A stretch of DNA of 19,197 nucleotides, from assembly GCF_015220045.1 (NCBI RefSeq), contig NZ_JADBGB010000007.1:1-19197 (forward strand). The letters run 5' to 3'. This DNA is from Marivivens aquimaris (GTDB lineage: Bacteria; Pseudomonadota; Alphaproteobacteria; Rhodobacterales; Rhodobacteraceae). Shown piece after piece: positions 3,155 to 13,602 of the stretch. Below the pieces are notes generated by a model. That model saw only the letters and a program-made list of their open reading frames with translations. It was not told the DNA's origin and did not search any database. Position numbers and translations under genes: made by a program. Position 1 is the first letter of the stretch, and each line of letters starts with the position of its first letter.

Positions 3155-3448
3155 ATCCTGTTGATCCGCCTGCCATCCTGGCAGGTCCGAGAAAACCGGC
3201 AAGCGCCGCTGTTGGCGTCGGTTCCGGTCGAGAATTCCGGTTCCTCCCACGCGCAGGCGCGCGGTTCCCTCCCAAATTCACGCCCTCCACCCGGTTGTCA
3301 CGGCCCCGCCAGGCCACAGGACGGGCTTTGCCCTTACCTGCTCTGCCCTTCGGAATGCATGGGCATTCCAAAGATCAGAACAGGAAGGCCCGCCCATCGG
3401 CGGAAAGGGAAAGAGACCCGGCCCGCGTTACTCGAAGGAGGGTCACAA
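3155..3448. promoter_or_regulatory. Hairpin-rich leader upstream of ardC
   Basis: No gene is supported here; the open frame upstream of ardC has no ribosome binding site and no ArdC-like residues. The segment holds several inverted repeats. One is a perfect 7-bp stem at 3169-3185 (CCTGCCA/TGGCAGG). A second is a bulged stem at 3194-3223 (AACCG and GCGCC pairing with GGCGT and CGGTT). A third is a perfect 7-bp stem at 3352-3369 (GGAATGC/GCATTCC), and there are shorter GC stems between. The ribosome binding site for ardC is GAAGGAGG at about 3434-3441. No convincing -35/-10 pair was found. Folded single-stranded promoters are known in leading regions of conjugative plasmids; whether this is one is inference. 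Confidence 0.45.
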
Positions 3449-4333
3449 ATGACCGCAGCGAAGTTTGACGTTTATTCCCATGTCACCAATCAGATCATCG
3501 CGCAGATCGAGGCGGGGACGCCGCCTTGGCGTAAGCCGTGGACCGGCTCTGGGGCATCGGTCAGCTTGCCAGAACGGTTCAACGGGGAAGCTTACCGGGG
3601 GATCAATATCCTGATGCTTTGGGCGACCGCGATGTCGAAGGGCTACAGCTCAGCCCGCTGGATGACGTTCAATCAGGCCAAGGAGCTTGGGGGCCATGTC
3701 CGCATGGGCGAGAAATCCGCTACCGTTGTGAAATACGGCACCGTCGAGCGGGAGGACGAAAACGGCGAGGAGCGTCAGATCCCCTATGCCAAGGCCTACC
3801 GTGTGTTCAACGCCGATCAGATCGAGGGCTTGCCCGCTGAATTCTACATCCTGCCCGATCCGCCGCGCGATCTTGACACCGTGGCCGACCCCGAGCTGGA
3901 GGCGTTTTTTGCCGCGAGCGGCGCGCAGATCGACAGCACCGAGGAACCGCGCGCCTATTACAATATCAAGACCGACCGCATCCACATGCCGCTGATCGCG
4001 ACCTTTCACAGGGCCGCAGGATATTACGGCACCTTGGCGCATGAGCTGACCCACTGGACAGGGGCGACAAAGCGACTGGACCGTCTGGGCCGGTTCAATG
4101 ATCGCAAGGCCTATGCGTTCGAGGAGCTGGTCGCGGAAATCGGCAACTGCATGCTTTGCACACAGATCGGGGTGGAGCCTGAATTCGACCAGAGCGCCGC
4201 CTATGTCGAGGGGTGGCTTGCTGCGATGAAGGAAGACCACCGCGCGATATTCCGCGCTGCGTCGGAGGCGCAAAAGGCCGTGGATTATATCATGGAGCGT
4301 ACCGCGCAGGCCGACCGGATGGCCGCCGAGTAA
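3449..4333 (+). CDS. ardC: ArdC antirestriction protein
   Basis: A 294-residue protein starting at ATG 3449, behind a strong GAAGGAGG site. The N-terminal domain (about 1-125) is the ArdC single-strand-DNA-binding domain, with Tyr-Ser-x-Val-Thr-Asn-Gln-Ile-Ile near residue 9, Pro-Pro-Trp-Arg-Lys-Pro-Trp near 25, and Tyr-Arg-Gly-Ile-Asn near 49. The C-terminal part is a zincin-like metallopeptidase domain with His-Glu-Leu-Thr-His at 198-202 and Phe-Glu-Glu-Leu-Val-Ala-Glu at 224-230, which likely supplies the third zinc ligand. ArdC proteins coat incoming single-stranded plasmid DNA and protect it from host restriction enzymes. Length and both domains are complete. It stands alone, convergent with the restriction operon, and ends at a strong terminator. 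Confidence 0.95.
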   Translation: MTAAKFDVYSHVTNQIIAQIEAGTPPWRKPWTGSGASVSLPERFNGEAYRGINILMLWATAMSKGYSSARWMTFNQAKELGGHVRMGEKSATVVKYGTVEREDENGEERQIPYAKAYRVFNADQIEGLPAEFYILPDPPRDLDTVADPELEAFFAASGAQIDSTEEPRAYYNIKTDRIHMPLIATFHRAAGYYGTLAHELTHWTGATKRLDRLGRFNDRKAYAFEELVAEIGNCMLCTQIGVEPEFDQSAAYVEGWLAAMKEDHRAIFRAASEAQKAVDYIMERTAQADRMAAE

Positions 4334-4358
4334 CAGCCTGCACCGCCGAAATGATCGA

Positions 4359-4387
4359 GGCCCCCGTCAGCAGGCGGGGGCCTTTTT
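4359..4387 (+). terminator. Rho-independent terminator of ardC
   Basis: A perfect 8-bp GC stem (GGCCCCCG at 4359-4366 with CGGGGGCC at 4375-4382), an eight-base loop, then five T residues at 4383-4387. It starts 25 bases after the ardC stop. This is a classical intrinsic terminator on the plus strand. Confidence 0.92.
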
Positions 4388-4428
4388 GCGTTGTGGCGTT
4401 ATCCTGGGCGTGGGCGGTTTCAGGGTGA

Positions 4429-4502
4429 CCTGTCGGCGGGCAACCTAAAGGCCACCCGCCAACAGGCCCGGCGCTTCGCGCGGACGGGCATAGGATGCCC
4501 GT
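4429..4502. repeat. Cluster of three hairpins between convergent genes
   Basis: Three inverted repeats stand side by side. The first is 4429-4466, CCTGT-C-GGCGGG pairing with CCCGCC-A-ACAGG. The second is 4471-4481, GCGC-TTC-GCGC. The third is 4484-4502, ACGGGCAT-AGG-ATGCCCGT, a perfect 8-bp stem. They lie between the ardC terminator and the 3' end of the minus-strand defence operon. They may terminate the minus-strand transcript, though no T-run follows in that direction. Their number suggests another structural role. Confidence 0.6.
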
Positions 4503-4537
4503 AGGACGAGAAAAGTTGAGTGACCCGCGAAGGGGGG

Positions 4538-5296
4538 TCAGGTGATTTCTTCAATGTCTCCTGCCAGCAGCTTTGGGAGAAGATTGGATCGGATGCCTTC
4601 CATCTTTCTTTCATAGGCGTCTTTTCGATCGAAGCGAAAGGTCCGGCTAATAAATGAACTCTTGTTCGATGGTTCCTTGTTCCAATGTGCGAGAATATAA
4701 AAATTGTCCTTTAGATAATACCCAACGACCTTGCAGGTTCGGTGCGAGCTTTCCTCTTCAATCCGATCGAGCTCGCCATGCCGTGTTTGGTGTGCAAGCT
4801 GCTTCGAACTTGGCCATGGCACCTGCCAACGTCTGCCGGTTTGGTCGAGCACGCAAACCTTCGCAACCTTATCCAGATGCGCTACTCGCCTTTCTTCTAT
4901 GGAGAATTCCTTCTTTTCGCCCTCTGACAGGCTCACTGGTTTCAGGCGGCTTAAATCGTCTGCGTTCCGAAATTTGCCGTCTCGCCAGAGACGACGACGA
5001 AACAAGCGGTTCTTCAGATCAGGAGGGTTATAGGAATACTCGATAGCATCGAGTGTAACAGGCCTTCGACCAACGCATCTTACAACAATCTTGTATTTTG
5101 GGCGAGGGATGCCGTTCGAAACCTCAAAGTCAAAAACGGCCTCACATTTTAACCGTGCTTGGTCGCGTTTTTGGTGTCGAAATCGCAACCAGAGCCCAAG
5201 AATACCCGTGATCGTGCCGATTGTGCCCGTGACCGCCCCCCAGATGGCGACCGCTTGAGTGCCTGTGAGTGCGGAGAAGTCTATCCAACCAGCCAT
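4538..5296 (-). CDS. One-pass membrane protein, last gene of the defence operon
   Basis: A 252-residue protein of unknown function starting at ATG 5296, four bases past the stop of the restriction-modification gene, so almost certainly co-translated with it. A single hydrophobic segment at about residues 14-38 (Ala-Ile-Trp-Gly-Ala-Val to Leu-Gly-Leu-Trp-Leu) is followed by Arg/Lys-rich residues. This suggests a membrane anchor with the bulk of the protein in the cytoplasm. Residues 45-145 look beta-sandwich-like, with Lys-Ile-Val-Val-Arg-Cys-Val-Gly-Arg-Arg-Pro-Val-Thr and Leu-Ser-Glu-Gly-Glu-Lys-Lys-Glu-Phe. This resembles anchored Ig-like hypothetical proteins I remember, without a name. 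No nuclease or protease motif is visible. Base composition is AT-richer than the upstream gene, hinting at a separate origin. Confidence 0.75.
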   Translation of the reverse strand: MAGWIDFSALTGTQAVAIWGAVTGTIGTITGILGLWLRFRHQKRDQARLKCEAVFDFEVSNGIPRPKYKIVVRCVGRRPVTLDAIEYSYNPPDLKNRLFRRRLWRDGKFRNADDLSRLKPVSLSEGEKKEFSIEERRVAHLDKVAKVCVLDQTGRRWQVPWPSSKQLAHQTRHGELDRIEEESSHRTCKVVGYYLKDNFYILAHWNKEPSNKSSFISRTFRFDRKDAYERKMEGIRSNLLPKLLAGDIEEIT

Positions 5297-5300
5297 TTGG

Positions 5301-8300
5301 TCACACAGCGCTTTCCAGCAGCGCGATTTCGTCTTCGGTCAGGTCGAACAGATCATAGACGATGCTGTCTATCTGGGCTTCAGCCTGGGCGATTTCGGCG
5401 GTCAGGCGGGCGATCTCGGCGCGGTCGCGGTTGATCCAGTCCTCCCAGTCGGAGCGATCGGCCAGTGGGATGTCGGCCTTGAACACCTTCTTCACCTCGG
5501 CGCGGAAAGTGGCGAAGTCGGGCAGGGTCCACCATTCCTGAAGCCGGGTTGTCAGCTTGGGTTCACGTTCAGGCGGGCAGAGATCGGGAATCCGGCGCGT
5601 CAGGGCCGTTTGCAGGGCCAGACGTTTATGCGCGGCACTACTGGCGCGCTTGCTTTCAGTGGCGAGCTGCGCGCGCCTTGTGTCATCCCATTTCGGGATT
5701 GGCAGCTTTTCAACGTATTGTACCCGCAGCTCATGGTAACCGCCCCGCACTGGCGGGCTCATAGATGATAACATGAACCAGAGCACCTGACTGTTTAGGA
5801 GCGCCAGCAAAGCCTGGTCATCGGACGGGATCAGATAGGACTTGTCGTTCGAGAAAGCCCCTTGGGGTTCGAATGAAAAATTTCGCTCGGCGTTGAAGTG
5901 CGGATAGCTGATCTTCGGCGCGGCAAAGTGCGGAGCATAGGCCTCCTGCGCCTGTTGGAGCTCGAACCATTCCTGTTTCGTGGCGCGCTTTTCCAGTTTG
6001 TCCCTGAAGGGCAGCAGCCATTCCCGGATGGCGGGATAATCGTCAATGTCGATCCGGTTCTTGGGAATGTAGATCAGCCACAGGCCGCGCGGTTCGGCAC
6101 GCCAGCGTTTCAGGTCTTTGCCTTCGAGGAAGGGCTTCAGCAAATCGGCAGACTTTGGGTCCTGGGCACAGAGGCGTTCTTTGGTAACGTTGTCGATCAC
6201 AAAGGCTCCGTTCAACCCTGTAACAATCCCCCGGCATGGTGCGCCATATACGCTTTTCAGGGTCTTCCTGCCCTTTTTGATCTTGTCCCGCAGGGCGCGC
6301 AGGGCGGGGTTTTCCAGTTCCCATGACCCGGCCCCCAGGGCTGTTTGTGGATACGGGCCGGCAGCGGCTTCCCAAGTGGCGAGGAAGTTGTTTTCCGGCA
6401 GAGCATCCACCTTCCAGAAGCGCAGCTCATGCCCCTTGGGCGCGGCACCTCGTTTCATGGTCAGGATGGCCGGATAGGTGGTCACCCCCTCGAAGACTTG
6501 CAGGTCGCCAAAATCGACTACGCTTTCGATGGTCGCCTCTTTCAGAAGGTATTCGCGCAGGGGCTTGCCCGAGCCGGTCTTGAAGAAGGTGTTCGAGGAA
6601 ATGTAGCCCAAGCGCCCACCCGGTTTCAGCAAGCGCAGGCCGCGTTCGTAGAAATAGCAGTAGAGATCAGCCCGGTCGGACACGACCTCATAGCGCTTTT
6701 CCAGATAGGGTTTCAGCAGCTTCAGGAATTCCATCCGCACATAAGGCGGGTTGCCCAGGACCACGTCAAAGCCACCTTCGGCAAAGACGCCGGGGAAGGC
6801 GGTTTCCCAGGTGAAGGCGTGGTCGAGATAGGCGAAGTTGCTGTCCTCGATCAGGCTGTCACCGACGCGGATGCTGCCCGACAGGCTGTCGAGAAGCTTG
6901 CCGCGCCGGGCGGTCTTGATCCAGAGCGACAGCTTGGTGATCTCGATGCTTTCCTCGTTCACGTCCACGCCGAAGAGGTTGTCGGTCAGAATTTCGCTGT
7001 CGGGGACATAGTCGAGCAGATCGCCAAAATGCTCGGCCTTAGGCAGCAGGTCTTTGATCTTGTCGTTTACGCGGGTCAGTTCGGCCTTCATGAAGTCGAA
7101 GGCCATGATCAGGAACACACCGGAGCCACAGGCGGGATCGACAATGCGCAAAGATTTCAGGCGATCGCGATAGGCTTGCCAAGCTTCGAGCTCGGCCGAC
7201 TTTTTCCGCCAGGGGATGTTTTCGTAGTCGGTGACATCCGCGCCCTTCTTGGCGTGAGCGCGCATAGTGTCGTCGAAGATTTCCCGCAGATGCGTGCCCA
7301 GAGTTTCGGCCACGATGAAGCGCGCGATATAATCAGGGGTATAGACCACCCCGTCACGCTTGCGCCGCCCGCTTGTGCCAGTGGTTTTCTCGGGCTCTTC
7401 CTCTTCACCGCGCGCGATCGCTTGCAGGCGTTCCACGTCCGCGATGGACTGTTCAAAGATATGGCCGAGGACCGTGACCGAGACCTCGGAGGCGAAGTCA
7501 TACTCGCCTAGGGTTTTGAACCCTTCGCAGATGTCATCGGGGATGTTCAGCCTGTTGATCACCGCGTCTTCGCGGAACAGACCCCCGTTGTAGCGCGGGA
7601 TTTTCAGCTCGTTATTGCCCACGTCGATCGCGCGGAACAGACCTTTGAAATTGTCCCAGACGGGGCGAGGGTTGTAAGGGTCACGCGCGATGAAGGCGTT
7701 TTCCAGTGTGTTGTCCGGTAGCAGGCCGGTATCTTCGGCAAAGGCGATGAACAACACCCGATCGAGGATCTTCTGCGCGAGGGCGATCGCATCGAGGGGC
7801 GCGATCGCGGTATCGGCCTTCTGGACGGCGCTCAGGAGCTTGAGGCGCAGGTCCTTGTAGTCCTGATACAGGCTGTCGGTGATGTCCTTGTCTTCGCGGC
7901 GGCTTTCTTTCAGCAGATCAGCCGTGCGGCCAGACAGCAGATTTTCCGCCGACAGAAGCAGCATGAATCGCGCGTATTCTGAGGGGTCTGTCAGTTGGTC
8001 GAGGCGGAATTCCTCATAGGCCGAGGTGCCTTCCCCGAAACCGTAGAAGCGCAGCTCGATCATGTTCGAGACCATAACCCATTTCACGCCGCGCGCGTTC
8101 ATGGCGTATTCCCACGCCTGTTGAACGGGGCTCTTGTTCCGGCCCGGCATGATTGCATCGAGGTCGCGGGTATCCGCGCCCTTCAGCTCGAATGGTGCCA
8201 CGATGTCAGGCGTCTTGCCGCCAAAGCGGCCAAGCGCCAGATCGACGCTACCGCGCAGAATATTTTGTTCGGTTGAGACGTTGTAGTCTGCCCCGCCAGC

Positions 8301-8492
8301 CGGGCCATGGTAGCCGAGAACACCTTCAACGATCTTGGAGGCGAACTGCCCATGCAGGGCGGTTTCCTTCAGGCGTTCAATCCGGCCCGAGCTGATCAAC
8401 TCTGCCCAGGCTTCCAGCGCAGCCAGATGCTCTGACGGGATCGGATCGGCTTTGATGTGGCGCTTCAGGGTCTTACGGTTGAACAAATTCAT
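5301..8492 (-). CDS. Type IIG-like restriction endonuclease-methyltransferase fusion
   Basis: A 1063-residue single-chain restriction-modification enzyme of the Eco57I-like kind. An N-terminal nuclease domain shows Gly-Ser-Val-Asp (Asp84), Pro-Asp-Ile-Val (Asp96) and Phe-Glu-Leu-Lys (Glu102, Lys104), fitting a PD-(D/E)xK site. A helical connector leads to an N6-adenine methyltransferase. Tyr-Thr-Pro-Asp-Tyr-Ile-Ala at 384-390 precedes the SAM-binding Asp-Pro-Ala-Cys-Gly-Ser-Gly at 452-458 and the catalytic Asn-Pro-Pro-Tyr at 581-584. The last third is a TaqI-like specificity domain (around 780-960, with Tyr-Val-Glu-Lys-Leu-Pro-Ile-Pro). A coiled-coil end closes with the Val-Tyr-Asp-Leu-Phe-x-Leu-Thr signature. 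Both activities look intact. It starts three bases after abiEii. The recognition sequence cannot be read from the protein. Confidence 0.9.
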   Translation of the reverse strand: MNLFNRKTLKRHIKADPIPSEHLAALEAWAELISSGRIERLKETALHGQFASKIVEGVLGYHGPAGGADYNVSTEQNILRGSVDLALGRFGGKTPDIVAPFELKGADTRDLDAIMPGRNKSPVQQAWEYAMNARGVKWVMVSNMIELRFYGFGEGTSAYEEFRLDQLTDPSEYARFMLLLSAENLLSGRTADLLKESRREDKDITDSLYQDYKDLRLKLLSAVQKADTAIAPLDAIALAQKILDRVLFIAFAEDTGLLPDNTLENAFIARDPYNPRPVWDNFKGLFRAIDVGNNELKIPRYNGGLFREDAVINRLNIPDDICEGFKTLGEYDFASEVSVTVLGHIFEQSIADVERLQAIARGEEEEPEKTTGTSGRRKRDGVVYTPDYIARFIVAETLGTHLREIFDDTMRAHAKKGADVTDYENIPWRKKSAELEAWQAYRDRLKSLRIVDPACGSGVFLIMAFDFMKAELTRVNDKIKDLLPKAEHFGDLLDYVPDSEILTDNLFGVDVNEESIEITKLSLWIKTARRGKLLDSLSGSIRVGDSLIEDSNFAYLDHAFTWETAFPGVFAEGGFDVVLGNPPYVRMEFLKLLKPYLEKRYEVVSDRADLYCYFYERGLRLLKPGGRLGYISSNTFFKTGSGKPLREYLLKEATIESVVDFGDLQVFEGVTTYPAILTMKRGAAPKGHELRFWKVDALPENNFLATWEAAAGPYPQTALGAGSWELENPALRALRDKIKKGRKTLKSVYGAPCRGIVTGLNGAFVIDNVTKERLCAQDPKSADLLKPFLEGKDLKRWRAEPRGLWLIYIPKNRIDIDDYPAIREWLLPFRDKLEKRATKQEWFELQQAQEAYAPHFAAPKISYPHFNAERNFSFEPQGAFSNDKSYLIPSDDQALLALLNSQVLWFMLSSMSPPVRGGYHELRVQYVEKLPIPKWDDTRRAQLATESKRASSAAHKRLALQTALTRRIPDLCPPEREPKLTTRLQEWWTLPDFATFRAEVKKVFKADIPLADRSDWEDWINRDRAEIARLTAEIAQAEAQIDSIVYDLFDLTEDEIALLESAV

Positions 8493-8495
8493 GAA

Positions 8496-9419
8496 TTAAA
8501 GGGCTTTCTTGATGCTGCCCCATGGCAGCGAAACATAGAGATCGTGCATGAGAGCAAAGCGCTCTTCAAAGGGCGCAAGGTCACCAATTTCGAGGGCGAG
8601 CGTTTCCCAATCGGCCTGGGCGCGTTGTTTGATTTCCGGGTCATCCATGGATTCTGGCTTAGCCTCGATCCCACGGCTGCGGCATTTCTCGATCAACGTG
8701 GTCAGGATGGCTGTTTTGTCAGCACCGCTGAAATCATGCTCGCCAATCAGAAATGCGATGTCGTAGACGTCCTGTCGCCGGTTGCGCTTGCGTATGGTTT
8801 GCTGAAGCAGAGCGCGGAATTTTTCGGCAATGAGCTCATGGATCGTGAACGCGCGCACCGCCACACCGGCCCCGTGCAGGTTTAGCTCCTGGAAGGCATA
8901 GACTTGATCGCGGAAGCTGATCTCGACATCAAGAACTCGGCTTGCCTTGCCGTCCGCCAGCCGGGCCTCTTCACCTGTGCCGCGCTTGGCGGAGCCAATG
9001 CGGACCCGGAGCGCGGGGAATTCGTGATCCTCAAAATTCTCTGCGCGCGGCATTTTCTTCACCGATTGCACCCGGCAAAGAAGATCGGGATAGCCGAGCC
9101 TGATCGCGGTTCTGGGCAAAAGTTCATTCAGTTCGGTGGTGAGCTTTTCCGTCAGGTCGGCGGGTTCTGCCATTGAGGTGAAGTCCACATCCCCGGTGAC
9201 CCGATTGCTTTTGAAAGCGAGGGCCATGACCGCCCCGCCCTTTAAAACGAGTGTTTTCGATAGTGAGGGGGCTAGGCCGATTGCCCCCAGGACAATCTCC
9301 GTAACCTGGCGATCTCGATAGAGCGTTGGGTTTGCACGTGCGGCTTCGACCCATGCGCGAACATCGACATCGACGATGTCGAATTTGCTATCTTGAGCGT
9401 GGGGGTCGTTGTCAGACAT
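8496..9419 (-). CDS. abiEii: AbiEii/AbiGii-family nucleotidyltransferase toxin
   Basis: A 307-residue protein starting at ATG 9419, overlapping the end of abiEi by eight bases. It carries the motifs of AbiEii toxins (DNA polymerase beta-like fold). These are Lys-Gly-Gly at 60-62, Arg-Val-Thr-Gly-Asp-Val-Asp at 73-79 (metal-binding Asp77 and Asp79), Asp164 within Val-Leu-Asp-Val-Glu, Ala-Glu-Lys with Lys200, and Asp-Val-Tyr-Asp at 217-220. Known AbiE toxins transfer nucleotides, for example to tRNA acceptor ends, stopping growth reversibly; the paired antitoxin controls the operon. All catalytic motifs are present, so it looks active. The unusual point is its placement directly in front of a type IIG gene in one operon. 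Confidence 0.9.
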   Translation of the reverse strand: MSDNDPHAQDSKFDIVDVDVRAWVEAARANPTLYRDRQVTEIVLGAIGLAPSLSKTLVLKGGAVMALAFKSNRVTGDVDFTSMAEPADLTEKLTTELNELLPRTAIRLGYPDLLCRVQSVKKMPRAENFEDHEFPALRVRIGSAKRGTGEEARLADGKASRVLDVEISFRDQVYAFQELNLHGAGVAVRAFTIHELIAEKFRALLQQTIRKRNRRQDVYDIAFLIGEHDFSGADKTAILTTLIEKCRSRGIEAKPESMDDPEIKQRAQADWETLALEIGDLAPFEERFALMHDLYVSLPWGSIKKAL

Positions 9420-10293
9420 TTATTGATATCATCCAGCGTTCTGAGAATTCAGGGGCATAGTCGGCGTCAGGGTCGAGTTTGCGCGATCCGCCCCGTTGAG
9501 CAAACTGCTCCCAGTTGTGCAGCGCCGGATCATCTATGTCCATGACTTCAGACAGAATATAGCCTGCGCGGACTTTGGCGATCTTACTGTCGAGGAGATC
9601 AATTGCGGCAATAATTTCGGGCACCCACTGATCCGCCTCATTTTCCCAGACATCGAGAACATGGCGCATGCCCCCACAAAGCTGTGGTTCGGCAAGCATG
9701 TCAGCAAAGGTTTGGCCAATTGAAGTGATCCGCGTTTCCTCACCACTCACGGGGGCCGGTGTCCAGGGGTGGCTTGATACATGCACCACGATCGGGCGGC
9801 GACGGATCGTACCCTTGAAGCCAGGCCTATTCAGAACGGGCGCTTCGATCTGGTCGAGATCGGGCAGGTCTACATGAAGACGTTTATCCCGGAGCGCATT
9901 CCACAGGGGTCTTTTGGGGGTTGTCAGGTGCAGCGCCTGTGGGCTGCGGTCAGTAAGCCCATAGCGCTGCATGGCAGATAGATGCGAGACGTAGGCGAAA
10001 GGATCAGCGATGCAGGCGACCTCTTCCGCCGACCCAGCTCTCGTTGATTGCGTCACACGCCACACGCCCGAGCGGAAGTCAGAGTCCATGACAAGCGCCT
10101 TCCGTGCCTCAAGGCGCCGTAGCGCATTTTTGGCGCGTGTCTGATCCCAGTCGTGCGGGAGGCGCTTCAACGGCTCGCCGTTCAGCGCCTTTTTGTGAAA
10201 CAGGTGGTAGCCTAGAACGAAGAAATCATAGAAGGTTATGACCGGCAAGTCCTTGTCGGTTATATCTTTTTCGATACCTTCGGTAAAATTCAT
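9412..10293 (-). CDS. abiEi: AbiEi-family antitoxin and autoregulator
   Basis: A 293-residue protein starting at ATG 10293, with AAGGA six bases upstream, inside a palindrome. The first 95 or so residues are a winged-helix region. Tyr-Val-Ser-His-Leu-Ser-Ala-Met-Gln-Arg-Tyr-Gly-Leu-Thr at 101-114 is the hallmark of the AbiEi antitoxin domain, which runs through the rest of the protein. Known AbiEi proteins bind inverted repeats ahead of their own operon and repress it, and neutralise AbiEii without a stable complex (type IV). The next gene's start lies within this gene's last codons. Two long palindromes directly upstream are the obvious operators. Confidence 0.87.
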   Translation of the reverse strand: MNFTEGIEKDITDKDLPVITFYDFFVLGYHLFHKKALNGEPLKRLPHDWDQTRAKNALRRLEARKALVMDSDFRSGVWRVTQSTRAGSAEEVACIADPFAYVSHLSAMQRYGLTDRSPQALHLTTPKRPLWNALRDKRLHVDLPDLDQIEAPVLNRPGFKGTIRRRPIVVHVSSHPWTPAPVSGEETRITSIGQTFADMLAEPQLCGGMRHVLDVWENEADQWVPEIIAAIDLLDSKIAKVRAGYILSEVMDIDDPALHNWEQFAQRGGSRKLDPDADYAPEFSERWMISINV

Positions 10294-10297
10294 CTGA

Positions 10298-10338
10298 CGT
10301 CCTTACCCCTATGTCCTTAGGACATAGGGGTAAGGACG
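10298..10338. promoter_or_regulatory. Perfect 41-bp palindrome (operator 1) over promoter and RBS
   Basis: Two 19-base arms (10298-10316 and 10320-10338) are exact inverses around a three-base TTA loop. It ends four bases before the abiEi start codon. It shares the core TATGTCCTWAGGACATA with the palindrome at 10390-10434. The ribosome binding site AAGGA (minus strand, 10304-10300) lies inside one arm, and the likely -10 hexamer lies within the palindrome. Bound AbiEi would block transcription. In a transcript entering from upstream, the hairpin would hide the ribosome binding site. Confidence 0.85.
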
Positions 10339-10350
10339 GCGTTGTGTCAA
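10321..10350 (-). promoter_or_regulatory. Putative promoter of the abiE-restriction operon
   Basis: On the minus strand a perfect -35 TTGACA (10350-10345) is followed after 18 bases by a weak -10, TATGTC (10326-10321), which lies in operator 1. The predicted start would fall near the centre of the palindrome, so its own transcript would not contain the full hairpin. The promoter placement is inferred from consensus only. Confidence 0.5.
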
Positions 10351-10389
10351 GAGTGGCCATCATCGTATGCCACTTAGCATATTAGACGC

Positions 10390-10434
10390 GACTGCGATAT
10401 CTGTATGTCCTAAGGACATACAGATATCGCAGTC
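10390..10434. promoter_or_regulatory. Perfect 45-bp palindrome (operator 2)
   Basis: Two 21-base arms (10390-10410 and 10414-10434) are exact inverses around TAA. Its centre lies 94 bp from that of operator 1. The core TATGTCCTWAGGACATA is shared; the outer arm sequences differ from operator 1. It is upstream of the inferred -35 and 23 bases beyond the WGR gene's stop, so it may also help end that transcript. The paired layout fits the two-site binding described for AbiEi repressors. Confidence 0.83.
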
Positions 10435-10457
10435 AGATGTAAATAGCGACTTCAAAT

Positions 10458-10709
10458 TCACCCAAACATCGCCAGCTGCTGAGGCTCCACCCAATAGCCG
10501 CGCTGACGCTTGGACGCTTCCAGTGTGATCAGAGCCGCGACCGCTTGGCTTTCATCCGCGAACCAATCCATCCGAACCTGACCGCCCTGGCCTATCCGTC
10601 CCCATTCCCGATAGAGCGTCCATTCGCCAAACAGGTTGGGCATGACGGCCATCCGGTAGAACCGGGCGACATTCTTCGCAGGCAGGTGTTTTTCGAGATA
10701 GGTCTGCAT
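10458..10709 (-). CDS. WGR-domain protein
   Basis: An 83-residue protein consisting almost entirely of one WGR domain, named after the Trp-Gly-Arg motif seen here at about residues 36-38 (Glu-Trp-Gly-Arg-Ile-Gly). It continues with a helix rich in Ala (Ala-Val-Ala-Ala-Leu) and Tyr-Trp-Val. WGR domains bind nucleic-acid ends in poly(ADP-ribose) polymerases; the free-standing bacterial version has no settled function. It starts three bases after the integrase stop, so the two form an operon. From memory this integrase-WGR pair recurs on alphaproteobacterial plasmids, which hints at a role in the recombination reaction. That is inference. Confidence 0.85.
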   Translation of the reverse strand: MQTYLEKHLPAKNVARFYRMAVMPNLFGEWTLYREWGRIGQGGQVRMDWFADESQAVAALITLEASKRQRGYWVEPQQLAMFG

Positions 10710-10712
10710 GGG

Positions 10713-11342
10713 TCAGAGATGATACTTGCGCGCGATTTCCAAGGCTTCGGCCTGTTCGGTGCCGATGTATTCCTTGGTGCTTTCGATGCTGGCATGGCCG
10801 AGCAACAACTGAGCTGCGCGCAGGTTGCCGGTTTGCTGATAAATATGGGTAGGGAAGGTGCGGCGCAGCGAATGCAGGCCATAGAGGCTGGGATCGAGGC
10901 GGGCCTTTTCCAGCCAGGACTTGAAGAGCCGCCAGAGCTGGCTTTCGCTGAGATGGGTGTGGGACCACCGTGCCCCCTGCCCCGTGAACAACCAGCCATG
11001 CAGCGGCTTTTCAGAGTCGGCGAGATAGGCCCGCAAACTGTCGCGCGTCCCCGAGGACAGCCGCGCCTGGACCGGGCGTGCATTGCGGGCTTCGGTCTTC
11101 TTCTGCCGAATTTCCACGATCTCGCGCACGCCTGCCGGTGTGGCTACGTCTGAGACCCGCAGGCGCACCAGGTCAGAACCCCGGAAGCTGGTGTCGAGGG
11201 CCACGTTGAACAGCGCCAGATCGCGCAAGGCGCGCTCCTGGCGCAACAGCAGCCGGATCAGCGCCACTTGGTCGGGCGTGAGGGGCGGCTTCTTGCCCAC
11301 AACGCGGCCCTTGTTCCAGGTGGTCTCGGGGGTGGCAGACAT
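10713..11342 (-). CDS. Short tyrosine recombinase (integrase family)
   Basis: A 209-residue protein starting at ATG 11342, with AAGGA upstream. The catalytic set is complete: Arg54 (Phe-Arg-Gly-Ser-Asp), Lys81/82 on the beta hairpin, His157-x-x-Arg160 (Gly-Leu-His-Ser-Leu-Arg-Arg), His183 (Leu-Leu-Gly-His) and the nucleophile Tyr192 (Ser-Thr-Lys-Glu-Tyr-Ile-Gly). It is about 90 residues shorter than XerC/XerD because the usual N-terminal core-binding domain is reduced to about 45 residues. On a plasmid of this size the likely job is resolving multimers. Integration into another replicon is the alternative. Whether it has its own site nearby is considered separately. Confidence 0.9.
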   Translation of the reverse strand: MSATPETTWNKGRVVGKKPPLTPDQVALIRLLLRQERALRDLALFNVALDTSFRGSDLVRLRVSDVATPAGVREIVEIRQKKTEARNARPVQARLSSGTRDSLRAYLADSEKPLHGWLFTGQGARWSHTHLSESQLWRLFKSWLEKARLDPSLYGLHSLRRTFPTHIYQQTGNLRAAQLLLGHASIESTKEYIGTEQAEALEIARKYHL

Positions 11343-12306: not shown

Positions 12307-13491
12307 TCAGTCGAAGTTTATCGCTTCGAAGAACCCTTTCAGACCATTCTGGAACGGATCGAGCGCATGTATTCGCTCTTCGGCCCAGACGATCCACTCG
12401 CTGAGAGGTCTATCTTCAATGGCGGTATCACCCTCAATTTGCAGACGGTGGCGTAGTTCGTCGATGAACGCCATAAGCCGATCGCGCTCCCGCCAGTTGT
12501 TTGCGTGCTCCTGAAACCGACACCAGCGCTTGTGGTCTATCTCCAGCTGTCTTTGGCGCTCACGGCGTTCTGCCTGCTCTTGTTCGTAGCGGCGGTGCCA
12601 TTCTGCGCGCTCCCGCGCCTCCTCTGCCAAAAGCGGCCCTGCCGCGATAATGGCGCTTACAATATCAGGCAGCATAATCGCCATCTTCTTCTTGGGCGTT
12701 TCAATCCAGTCGCGACTGCGGCCATTGACGTAGGTGTCGAACCTCACGCGCAGAAAGCCAGAGGAAACAAGGCCTGTTTGGTGGTGATGAGGAAGGGCCG
12801 TCCACTTCCCTGCCCCTTCCATGATCTTTGTCGCCCTCGACATTTTCTCAGCGATTACGCACTTGAGCTCTTGCCCGCTGACAAGGAATTTCACCTTGCC
12901 TGTAAGCTTGGCTTCGCCGATCTGTCCCCCTTGCTTCTCGATCGCGCGAAACAGGGTGCTTGTCACCCTGAAGCGATATCGGTCACGCGCAGTGAGGTCG
13001 CTGATATGAGGAAGTGACCCTCCCCAAAAGTCGCGCGACCGTTGCCGGTTTTCCGCTCGACGGCTCTCCTGTAGCTGACGGTGCTCTGCGACCCATGCCT
13101 TCACCTTCGGGTGCAGCGCTCGCATATGGTCAAGGCTTTCGTCGTCTTCATCGAAGGGTGGTAGTTCCGCAACGGACTCAGCGTCGCGAGATGGGACGGA
13201 CGCAGGTACTGGCGGTTTACCACTGCCCCGCGCTGGCTTGATTGAAGGGGAGGTCTTTTGGGGCGGTTCAAATGACGGCAAAGGAGGCATTTCAGGAGCA
13301 CGGCCAACGGCCTTTTTCTGCCAGTAGCCCAGGGGTGGCGTAGGGATTTGGCGCTTTCGACAAAGAGCGGCCAAGCCTGGCCCGTTCGTCGCGAGTTGGG
13401 GGCCAAGCTTGCTCATGGGTGTCTGCCAGACCAGTTCGTAAAGTTCCTCGCGAGACATTTCCTCTGCGGGGCGGGTAACGATGCCATCCAT
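12307..13491 (-). CDS. Uncharacterised protein with HTH-like N-terminus
   Basis: A 394-residue protein. I place the start at ATG 13491, with GAGAAAGG just upstream; an in-frame extension to 13590 lacks support. Residues 13-65 match a widespread hypothetical family I remember by its pattern: Arg-Glu-Glu-Leu-Tyr-Glu-Leu-Val-Trp, then Leu-Cys-Arg-Lys-Arg-x-Ile-Pro-Thr-Pro-Pro, then Gly-Tyr-Trp-x-Lys. This resembles a DNA-binding helix-turn-helix. A proline-rich linker (about 65-105) leads to a mixed domain (165-285). A strongly charged helical stretch (288-350, Glu/Arg/Gln-rich) is likely a coiled coil. No enzymatic motif is visible and the function is unknown. It diverges from the yefM-yoeB pair. 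Confidence 0.75.
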   Translation of the reverse strand: MDGIVTRPAEEMSREELYELVWQTPMSKLGPQLATNGPGLAALCRKRQIPTPPLGYWQKKAVGRAPEMPPLPSFEPPQKTSPSIKPARGSGKPPVPASVPSRDAESVAELPPFDEDDESLDHMRALHPKVKAWVAEHRQLQESRRAENRQRSRDFWGGSLPHISDLTARDRYRFRVTSTLFRAIEKQGGQIGEAKLTGKVKFLVSGQELKCVIAEKMSRATKIMEGAGKWTALPHHHQTGLVSSGFLRVRFDTYVNGRSRDWIETPKKKMAIMLPDIVSAIIAAGPLLAEEARERAEWHRRYEQEQAERRERQRQLEIDHKRWCRFQEHANNWRERDRLMAFIDELRHRLQIEGDTAIEDRPLSEWIVWAEERIHALDPFQNGLKGFFEAINFD

Positions 13492-13551
13492 GTGGGCCCT
13501 TTCTCCCTCGTGAATTCTCCATGAAATTGACAGCCGCCTTCGTATCACCCC

Positions 13552-13581
13552 TTTACTTGTACTTAATATTGTACATATAGA
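13552..13581 (+). promoter_or_regulatory. Promoter and operator of yefM-yoeB
   Basis: An inverted repeat TGTAC-eight bases-GTACA (13558-13562 and 13571-13575) contains a full TGTACA hexamer at 13570-13575, the core reported for YefM operators. It sits between a -35-like TTTACT (13552-13557) and a -10-like TATAGA (13576-13581), spacing 18. Repressor binding would therefore occlude the polymerase. Hexamers were chosen by consensus only. Confidence 0.6.
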
Positions 13582-13602
13582 GGGAAGCAAAGGAGAGTCG
13601 AC

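Follow-up and report, generated by a model that had tools for sequence, protein, structure and literature searches.

An AbiE toxin-antitoxin pair, two perfect palindromes and a type IIG restriction gene on a modular plasmid island

We analyzed a 19,197-nucleotide (nt) stretch of DNA from Marivivens aquimaris (hereafter the window), which lies on contig 7 of a 4.05-Mb genome in seven contigs and includes genes matching plasmid genes annotated in relatives for conjugative DNA transfer, as a replication initiator and as ParA. It encodes an AbiEi-AbiEii toxin-antitoxin (TA) pair, followed by a type IIG restriction-modification enzyme and by a fourth, anchored protein. Because the contents of the corresponding positions vary between related loci, these four genes are only one assortment of a modular plasmid restriction island. 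Our favored explanation, to which we give a probability of about 0.7, is that on this island AbiEi, bound to two operators, sets the levels of toxin, antitoxin and restriction enzyme together, gene 4 being optional. AbiE and type IIG are known kinds of system; their arrangement is new, and the operators have a property that is unexplained.

Results

AbiE is joined to a type IIG gene

All four genes lie on the minus strand; their extents and joints, described in an earlier note on this DNA, are confirmed by open reading frame (ORF) coordinates, and its naming of the AbiE pair and the type IIG enzyme is upheld by PADLOC and Pfam profile matches. The AbiEi antitoxin and presumed autorepressor (9412..10293, 293 amino acids) matches PADLOC PDLC02237 (E 1.6e-116) and, weakly and under the cut-off of the profile search, Pfam AbiEi_1 (E 0.026). 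Its gene overlaps by 8 nt that of the AbiEii nucleotidyltransferase toxin (8496..9419, 307 amino acids; PADLOC PDLC02306, 7.8e-112; Pfam AbiEii, 1.1e-27). A gap of 3 nt leads to the type IIG gene (5301..8492, 1063 amino acids; PADLOC PDLC03609, E 4.6e-145, residues 38-1062), and one of 4 nt to gene 4 (4538..5296, 252 amino acids), whose product has a hydrophobic N-terminal segment and finds no match in Pfam, NCBIfam or PADLOC at E 0.1. The pair has the gene arrangement of a type IV AbiE toxin-antitoxin system, an AbiEi-family gene overlapping or adjacent to an AbiEii gene, as well as inverted repeats at the promoter, to which AbiEi presumably binds.

The enzyme resembles type IIG proteins (PADLOC REase_MTase_IIG; Eco57I/MmeI-like Pfam domains) in combining an N-terminal region, an N6-adenine methylase and a TaqI-like specificity domain in a single chain (Pfam Eco57I, 8.3e-45; TaqI_C, 1.8e-9; N6_Mtase as well). 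It differs in that its gene stands third, behind a TA pair, and in the independent exchange of its specificity domain. No Pfam nuclease domain was matched in it. D84, E102 and K104, which we take to be nuclease residues, are invariant in six of six aligned sequences, as are DPACGSG (452-458) and NPPY (581-584), and from the conservation of the first three we infer a nuclease, so that the three activities of type IIG enzymes (nuclease, N6-adenine methylase and specificity domain) would be united in one chain. By sequence comparison, the methylase part matches solved adenine methylases; for AbiEi, AbiEii and the gene 4 family no credible match to solved structures was found by sequence. The ratio of nonsynonymous to synonymous substitution rates (dN/dS) is 0.05-0.15 for AbiEi, AbiEii and the IIG core, from pairs with measurable dS not near zero. 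A BREX PglX methylase was considered as the identity of the enzyme and rejected (NCBIfam BREX_1_MTaseX, 121 bits against a cut-off of 500); other BREX models were absent from the matches listed for eight window proteins, for protein 3 the best 25 of 82 PADLOC matches.

The joined block recurs. An IIG-centered scan with one genome per species gave 154 relatives, of which 80 were kept (fetched loci overlap and include duplicates); at nine of these 80 loci (L038, L039, L041, L044, L045, L048, L050, L063 and L077) AbiEi-AbiEii stands directly before IIG with a 3-nt gap. The same joint is found in five plasmid loci, from Pseudosulfitobacter (12 near-identical plasmids, one fetched), Thioclava, Sulfitobacter alexandrii, Phaeobacter piscinae and Paracoccus alcaliphilus, with insertion sequence (IS) elements breaking the IIG gene in Phaeobacter piscinae and both AbiEii and IIG genes in P. 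alcaliphilus. The AbiEii-IIG gap is 3 nt at all 12 AbiE-IIG loci measured and, by coordinates, at L004 and L005, which leaves a separate promoter no room outside the toxin gene. Among 390 Rhodobacterales genomes, a close IIG occurs in eight, the same AbiEi in seven (one partial) and both in three (hypergeometric P 2e-4; 2/389 and P 0.004 with the window's genome excluded). Genome G127 has a more distant AbiE pair (AbiEi identity 73%), behind which the same IIG gene runs for some 44 codons before it ends; the association therefore predates the near-identical group.

Gene 4 does not share in this recurrence. Within the fetched loci, the four-gene order is intact in the window only; the P. alcaliphilus copy is split by IS5, its IIG and gene 4 being again 4 nt apart. 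Relatives of gene 4 were found in 2 of 72,556 plasmid records (P. alcaliphilus and Aliarcobacter) and, counting the window's own genome each time, in 2 of the 390 genomes of the order and 2 of 398 from the phylum. In Aliarcobacter the relative adjoins a Lit-type peptidase gene, and in phage contigs relatives lie between terminase and portal genes or, in another, beside DUF2971; all fetched cases except the window and P. alcaliphilus are apart from this AbiE and IIG. Gene 4 has 70 homologues, two of them at 91-96% identity, with a conserved N-terminal segment; they come as sequences without genomic context, so more four-gene copies may exist. Gene 4, whose dN/dS is 0.29 in one pair, is probably optional cargo. 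The composite unit proposed in the earlier note is thus retained as a recurring joined AbiE-IIG block, and abandoned as a recurring set of four.

The block lies in an island with exchangeable slots

The layout of the island is recombinase, WGR, slot A, IIG (slot B), slot C and ArdC, most members carrying the tyrosine recombinase and WGR genes on one flank and the ArdC gene on the other. In the window, these borders are a tyrosine recombinase (10713..11342, minus strand; Pfam Phage_integrase 2.6e-24), an 83-amino acid WGR-domain protein at the edge of slot A (10458..10709, minus strand; Pfam WGR 6e-20) and an ArdC-type antirestriction protein (3161..4333, plus strand, true start possibly downstream of 3161; Pfam ArdcN 1.6e-41, MPTase-PolyVal 6.2e-46), the positions of the last two being conserved.

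Slot A holds AbiE or, at 4 of the 80 IIG loci (L040, L042, L054 and L071), a BrnT-BrnA toxin-antitoxin pair (BrnTA). AbiE genes are absent from these four loci, which have about 2 kb of other DNA between WGR and IIG (the L071 contig begins inside WGR). BrnT is present in all four replacements (Pfam BrnT_toxin, E 1.1e-26 or better), with a CopG-type antitoxin (in L054, Pfam 1.3e-5, at 26.3 bits against a cut-off of 28). The borders of the exchange are sharp, at about 10463 and 8511 in window coordinates; at the latter, 19 nt before the IIG start, homology to the window resumes, and the IIG cores of the four BrnTA loci are 97-98% identical to the window's.

Across island members, the IIG core in slot B (residues 1-745) is 94-98% identical to the window's. 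The specificity domain (residues ~850-950) is exchangeable and falls into clusters, three of which are each found both with AbiE and with BrnTA; to judge from these sequences, it is exchanged separately from the rest of the enzyme. Slot C contains the anchored protein of gene 4, Bro-N, DUF3800 or a 159-amino acid protein. A DUF3800 gene also stands behind IIG outside the island, in L062.

Other neighbors were seen at these and related loci. The ArdC antirestriction gene is convergent to the restriction operon and belongs to the same island in most relatives. An Mrr-type endonuclease gene is a neighbor at some other IIG loci, overlapping downstream in L051 (11207-12124, by Pfam) and L100 (6527-7426, by similarity to L051) and upstream in L037 (6752-7708, by Pfam). 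In Rhizobium sp. SSA_523 (L012:4034-7892), IIG comes after two genes, RloB and one whose annotation is ATP-binding protein. The 427-amino acid protein at window 12307-13590, which has no confident family, recurs next to this island in L041, L042 and L077 at 92-95% identity. Known RNA families gave no match in the window at the gathering threshold.

Perfect palindromes with variable arms precede abiEi

Two long perfect palindromes, absent from the earlier note, lie just upstream of abiEi: P1 (10390..10434) with 22-nt arms and P2 (10298..10338) with 20-nt arms, each around a 1-nt center and both containing the core TATGTCCTNAGGACATA. We presume both to be AbiEi operators, P2 overlapping the promoter. 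Allowing up to one mismatch, the 17-bp core occurs at only these two places in the whole genome, and 100 random 390-nt sequences reached a top arm score of 10, against 20 and 22 in the window.

All 30 fetched loci of this AbiEi subfamily have one or more perfect palindromes upstream of abiEi, and 25 have two. This set required readable upstream DNA, excludes L044 and the partial AbiEi of L036 and L124, and contains some near-duplicates; the AbiEii matches comprised 145 records, part of them fetched. Palindromes were gathered by core or by perfect arms, so their symmetry at short distance is partly owed to selection and arms below about 9 nt are unlisted; the presence of at least one at 30 of 30 loci is not a product of selection. 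Arms are mostly 22-23 nt long (19-28 overall), and there are usually two palindromes with centers 87-115 nt apart. Perfect palindromes whose arms reach 18 nt or more number 87 in 1.79 Mb of fetched, partly overlapping loci. The core is present in 80; of these, three are in BrnTA loci and all others lie within 400 nt of an AbiE match. Among 30 loci of the general AbiEii family, only L161, itself of this subfamily, has perfect palindromes, while L140, L141, L145 and L150 have 18-23-nt inverted repeats with one to three mismatches. Perfect palindromes thus look like a trait of this AbiEi subfamily, whose palindrome-bearing loci L123, L127-L131, L161 and L166-L168 come from Alphaproteobacteria and one betaproteobacterium (Acidovorax). 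A second AbiEii-family gene in the window's own genome (G000:C5:57259-58092 on contig 5; L155) has no long palindromes.

The arms pair exactly while their sequence varies. The main set holds 47 palindromes, 37 of them distinct, from related and distant AbiE loci. At every distance from 1 to 19 from the center all 37 are self-complementary, followed by 36 at 20 and at 21, 33 at 22, 11 at 23 and 2 at 24. Invariance is confined to the inner five positions, and all four bases occur at positions 8-16 and 18-22. By script, we compared 52 close pairs of distinct palindromes (the pairs are not independent): both arms differ at 76 of the changed positions, a single arm at 12. The window and other loci whose AbiEi or AbiEii is 36-75% identical to the window's, 15 loci in all, supplied a deeper set of 28 palindromes, which behaves alike: 28 of 28 are self-complementary at 1-19, then 27, 26 and 24 at 20-22, 16 at 23 and 4 at 24, with one exception to the core, at position 5. 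In the 20 loci compared, 7-11 of the 14 outer positions distinguish P1 from P2 of the same locus, though one AbiEi presumably binds both. Between the operon and the convergent ArdC gene lies a terminator-like hairpin (4357..4384, plus strand) that is kept in relatives and served as a control; it is nearly invariant, with no both-arm changes and two one-arm changes, both from one change in L050, and so has little power.

An AbiE-type palindrome with 23-nt arms also lies upstream of BrnT, where no AbiEi is matched, in L042 (7307-7353), L054 (7307-7353) and L071 (1482-1528); L040 has none. The BrnTA-IIG genes of these three loci may therefore have an AbiE-type promoter, either retained or gained. 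Upstream of BrnT in L040 (7309-7348) and L054 (7254-7289) there is another kind of palindrome, with 16-18-nt arms and a 4-nt loop. In L093 (5698-5862), two perfect palindromes with 26-27-nt arms lie about 111 nt apart in the layout seen at AbiE, around a different core; no AbiE match accompanies them, and no clear gene is found in the 500 nt behind.

A presumed promoter element lies next to P2. Reading the minus strand, TTGACA starts 32 nt before the P2 center in the window, and a TTGAC box stands 31-35 nt before it at 14 of 17 loci, two of them BrnTA loci.

Discussion

The palindromes are most likely AbiEi operators, since their arm length equals that of published 23-bp AbiEi repeats. In the excerpt of PMC3985639, AbiEi of Streptococcus agalactiae represses its own operon through two 23-bp inverted repeats; that system and ours share bicistronic genes for a repressor and a nucleotidyltransferase, inverted repeats over the promoter and a similar arm length (22-23 nt here, 19-28 overall). 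There, according to the same excerpt, a single pair of 23-bp repeats separated by 3 bp makes up the operator, with four mismatches and the outer 11 bp perfect, whereas here there are usually two perfect palindromes with conserved center and variable arms, and a restriction gene follows at a 3-nt gap. Rv2827c of Mycobacterium tuberculosis, as far as the excerpt of PMC7319586 describes it, likewise has two pairs of 23-bp inverted repeats as its binding sites, ahead of the antitoxin gene; 4 bp separate the pairs and 13 bp the two repeats within each, unlike the palindromes here, which have a 1-nt center and lie ~94 nt apart. In the S. suis integrative and conjugative element with SezAT and AbiE, the excerpt of PMC11062541 has AbiEi repressing its promoter through two palindromic repeats, helping to retain the mobile element, and binding oriT too; here the core is confined to two genomic sites. 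Among the open-licence PubMed Central papers listed for AbiE and type IIG, for TA and restriction genes sharing an operon, for BrnT with AbiE and restriction, and for cruciform or perfect-palindrome antitoxin operators, none reports this arrangement in its title or at the start of its abstract.

In the mechanism that we favor, AbiEi, AbiEii and the IIG enzyme would be expressed from one operon, and AbiEi would repress it by binding the two palindromic operators, one of which overlaps the promoter, thereby setting the level of the restriction enzyme alongside that of the toxin. The enzyme would methylate its own site and cut incoming unmodified DNA. AbiEii would arrest growth once AbiEi is lost or outpaced, which would stabilize the plasmid and might also let infected cells respond by ceasing to grow; the gene 4 protein would be an optional accessory, its slot being occupied by unrelated genes on other plasmids. 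That AbiEi governs the whole set, as the earlier note proposed, is plausible given a recurring joined block behind two operator-like palindromes; the note's single message for four genes was drawn from the joints.

Several observations weigh against this explanation. Neither AbiE nor BrnTA is seen at 67 of the 80 IIG loci, and 60 of these 67 have more than 900 nt of upstream sequence, so the enzyme can do without a TA pair. The 136 ORFs upstream of IIG at those 60 loci include helix-turn-helix models with up to six members; no BrnT or AbiEii model was among the 25 commonest of 54 Pfam families, two ORFs matched AAA_21, which Pfam labels 'putative AbiEii toxin', and given this tally we dropped a general rule of a TA pair in front of IIG. 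Conversely, subfamily AbiE pairs occur without IIG at L009, L010 and L127-L131 (L008 is truncated). The TTGAC box is absent from its place in L127, L129 and L130, and a strict sigma-70 scan of 4300-10760 returned no promoter (shuffles, mean 2.5); the scan therefore missed the presumed abiE promoter too, and the promoter assignment rests on the TTGAC box.

Such independence, together with the free exchange of slots, would be expected if AbiE, IIG and cargo were merely neighbors, brought together by recombination in a defense hotspot and each acting alone, their adjacency having no regulatory meaning. We think this unlikely: it does not account for the constant 3-nt AbiEii-IIG gap, for both slot A alternatives in the island being TA pairs, or for the AbiE-type palindrome upstream of BrnT in three of four BrnTA loci, with TTGAC at 32 nt in the two measured. 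The TA pair may instead be an addiction device against the loss or swapping-out of the restriction gene or plasmid, a reading that overlaps ours and that we regard as a real possibility, though short of even odds. The TA position before IIG persists in the island while the TA type changes, a recombinase gene flanks the block and, in the excerpt of PMC3985639, the abiE operon stabilized pUC19; the many IIG loci with neither TA pair speak against it. Very improbable, by comparison, is the fixed four-gene defense of the earlier note, in which the toxin guards the restriction enzyme, acting if it is inhibited, and the membrane protein is an essential effector. The tight joints of the window and the 4-nt IIG-gene 4 joint shared by P. 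alcaliphilus agree with it, but among the fetched loci gene 4 follows IIG at these two only, relatives fill the slot with Bro-N, DUF3800 or the 159-amino acid protein, the gene 4 family also occurs apart from AbiE and IIG (as between phage terminase and portal genes), and AbiE is unseen at most IIG loci. The guard model finds no direct support, and the variety of slot C, the BrnTA replacement and the single intact copy lead us to reject a fixed unit of four.

What AbiEi would recognize in its operators is a question of its own: the two arms of a palindrome match each other exactly, yet need not agree with those of the neighboring operator, to which the same protein presumably binds. Exact arm pairing with free sequence goes beyond the needs of an ordinary operator and is unexplained: either paired DNA, as cruciform or hairpin, is read, or template switching copies the arms onto each other. 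We leave this undecided, with function favored because the range of arm lengths is narrow and other perfect palindromes are rare. If arm pairing matters and most of the arm sequence does not, the AbiE operators might be read as structure, such as a cruciform extruded from the DNA or a single-strand hairpin, contacted at the conserved tip, an idea that we advance tentatively and consider rather doubtful. If true, a switch sensing supercoiling or single strands would control all three plasmid products, toxin, antitoxin and restriction enzyme, jointly, for instance when the plasmid enters a cell.

Our findings place a TA pair at the head of a restriction gene, AbiE and BrnTA being swapped at one border just before nearly the same enzyme. 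They make testable the question of whether TA repressors may stand in for controller proteins in timing restriction after plasmid entry.

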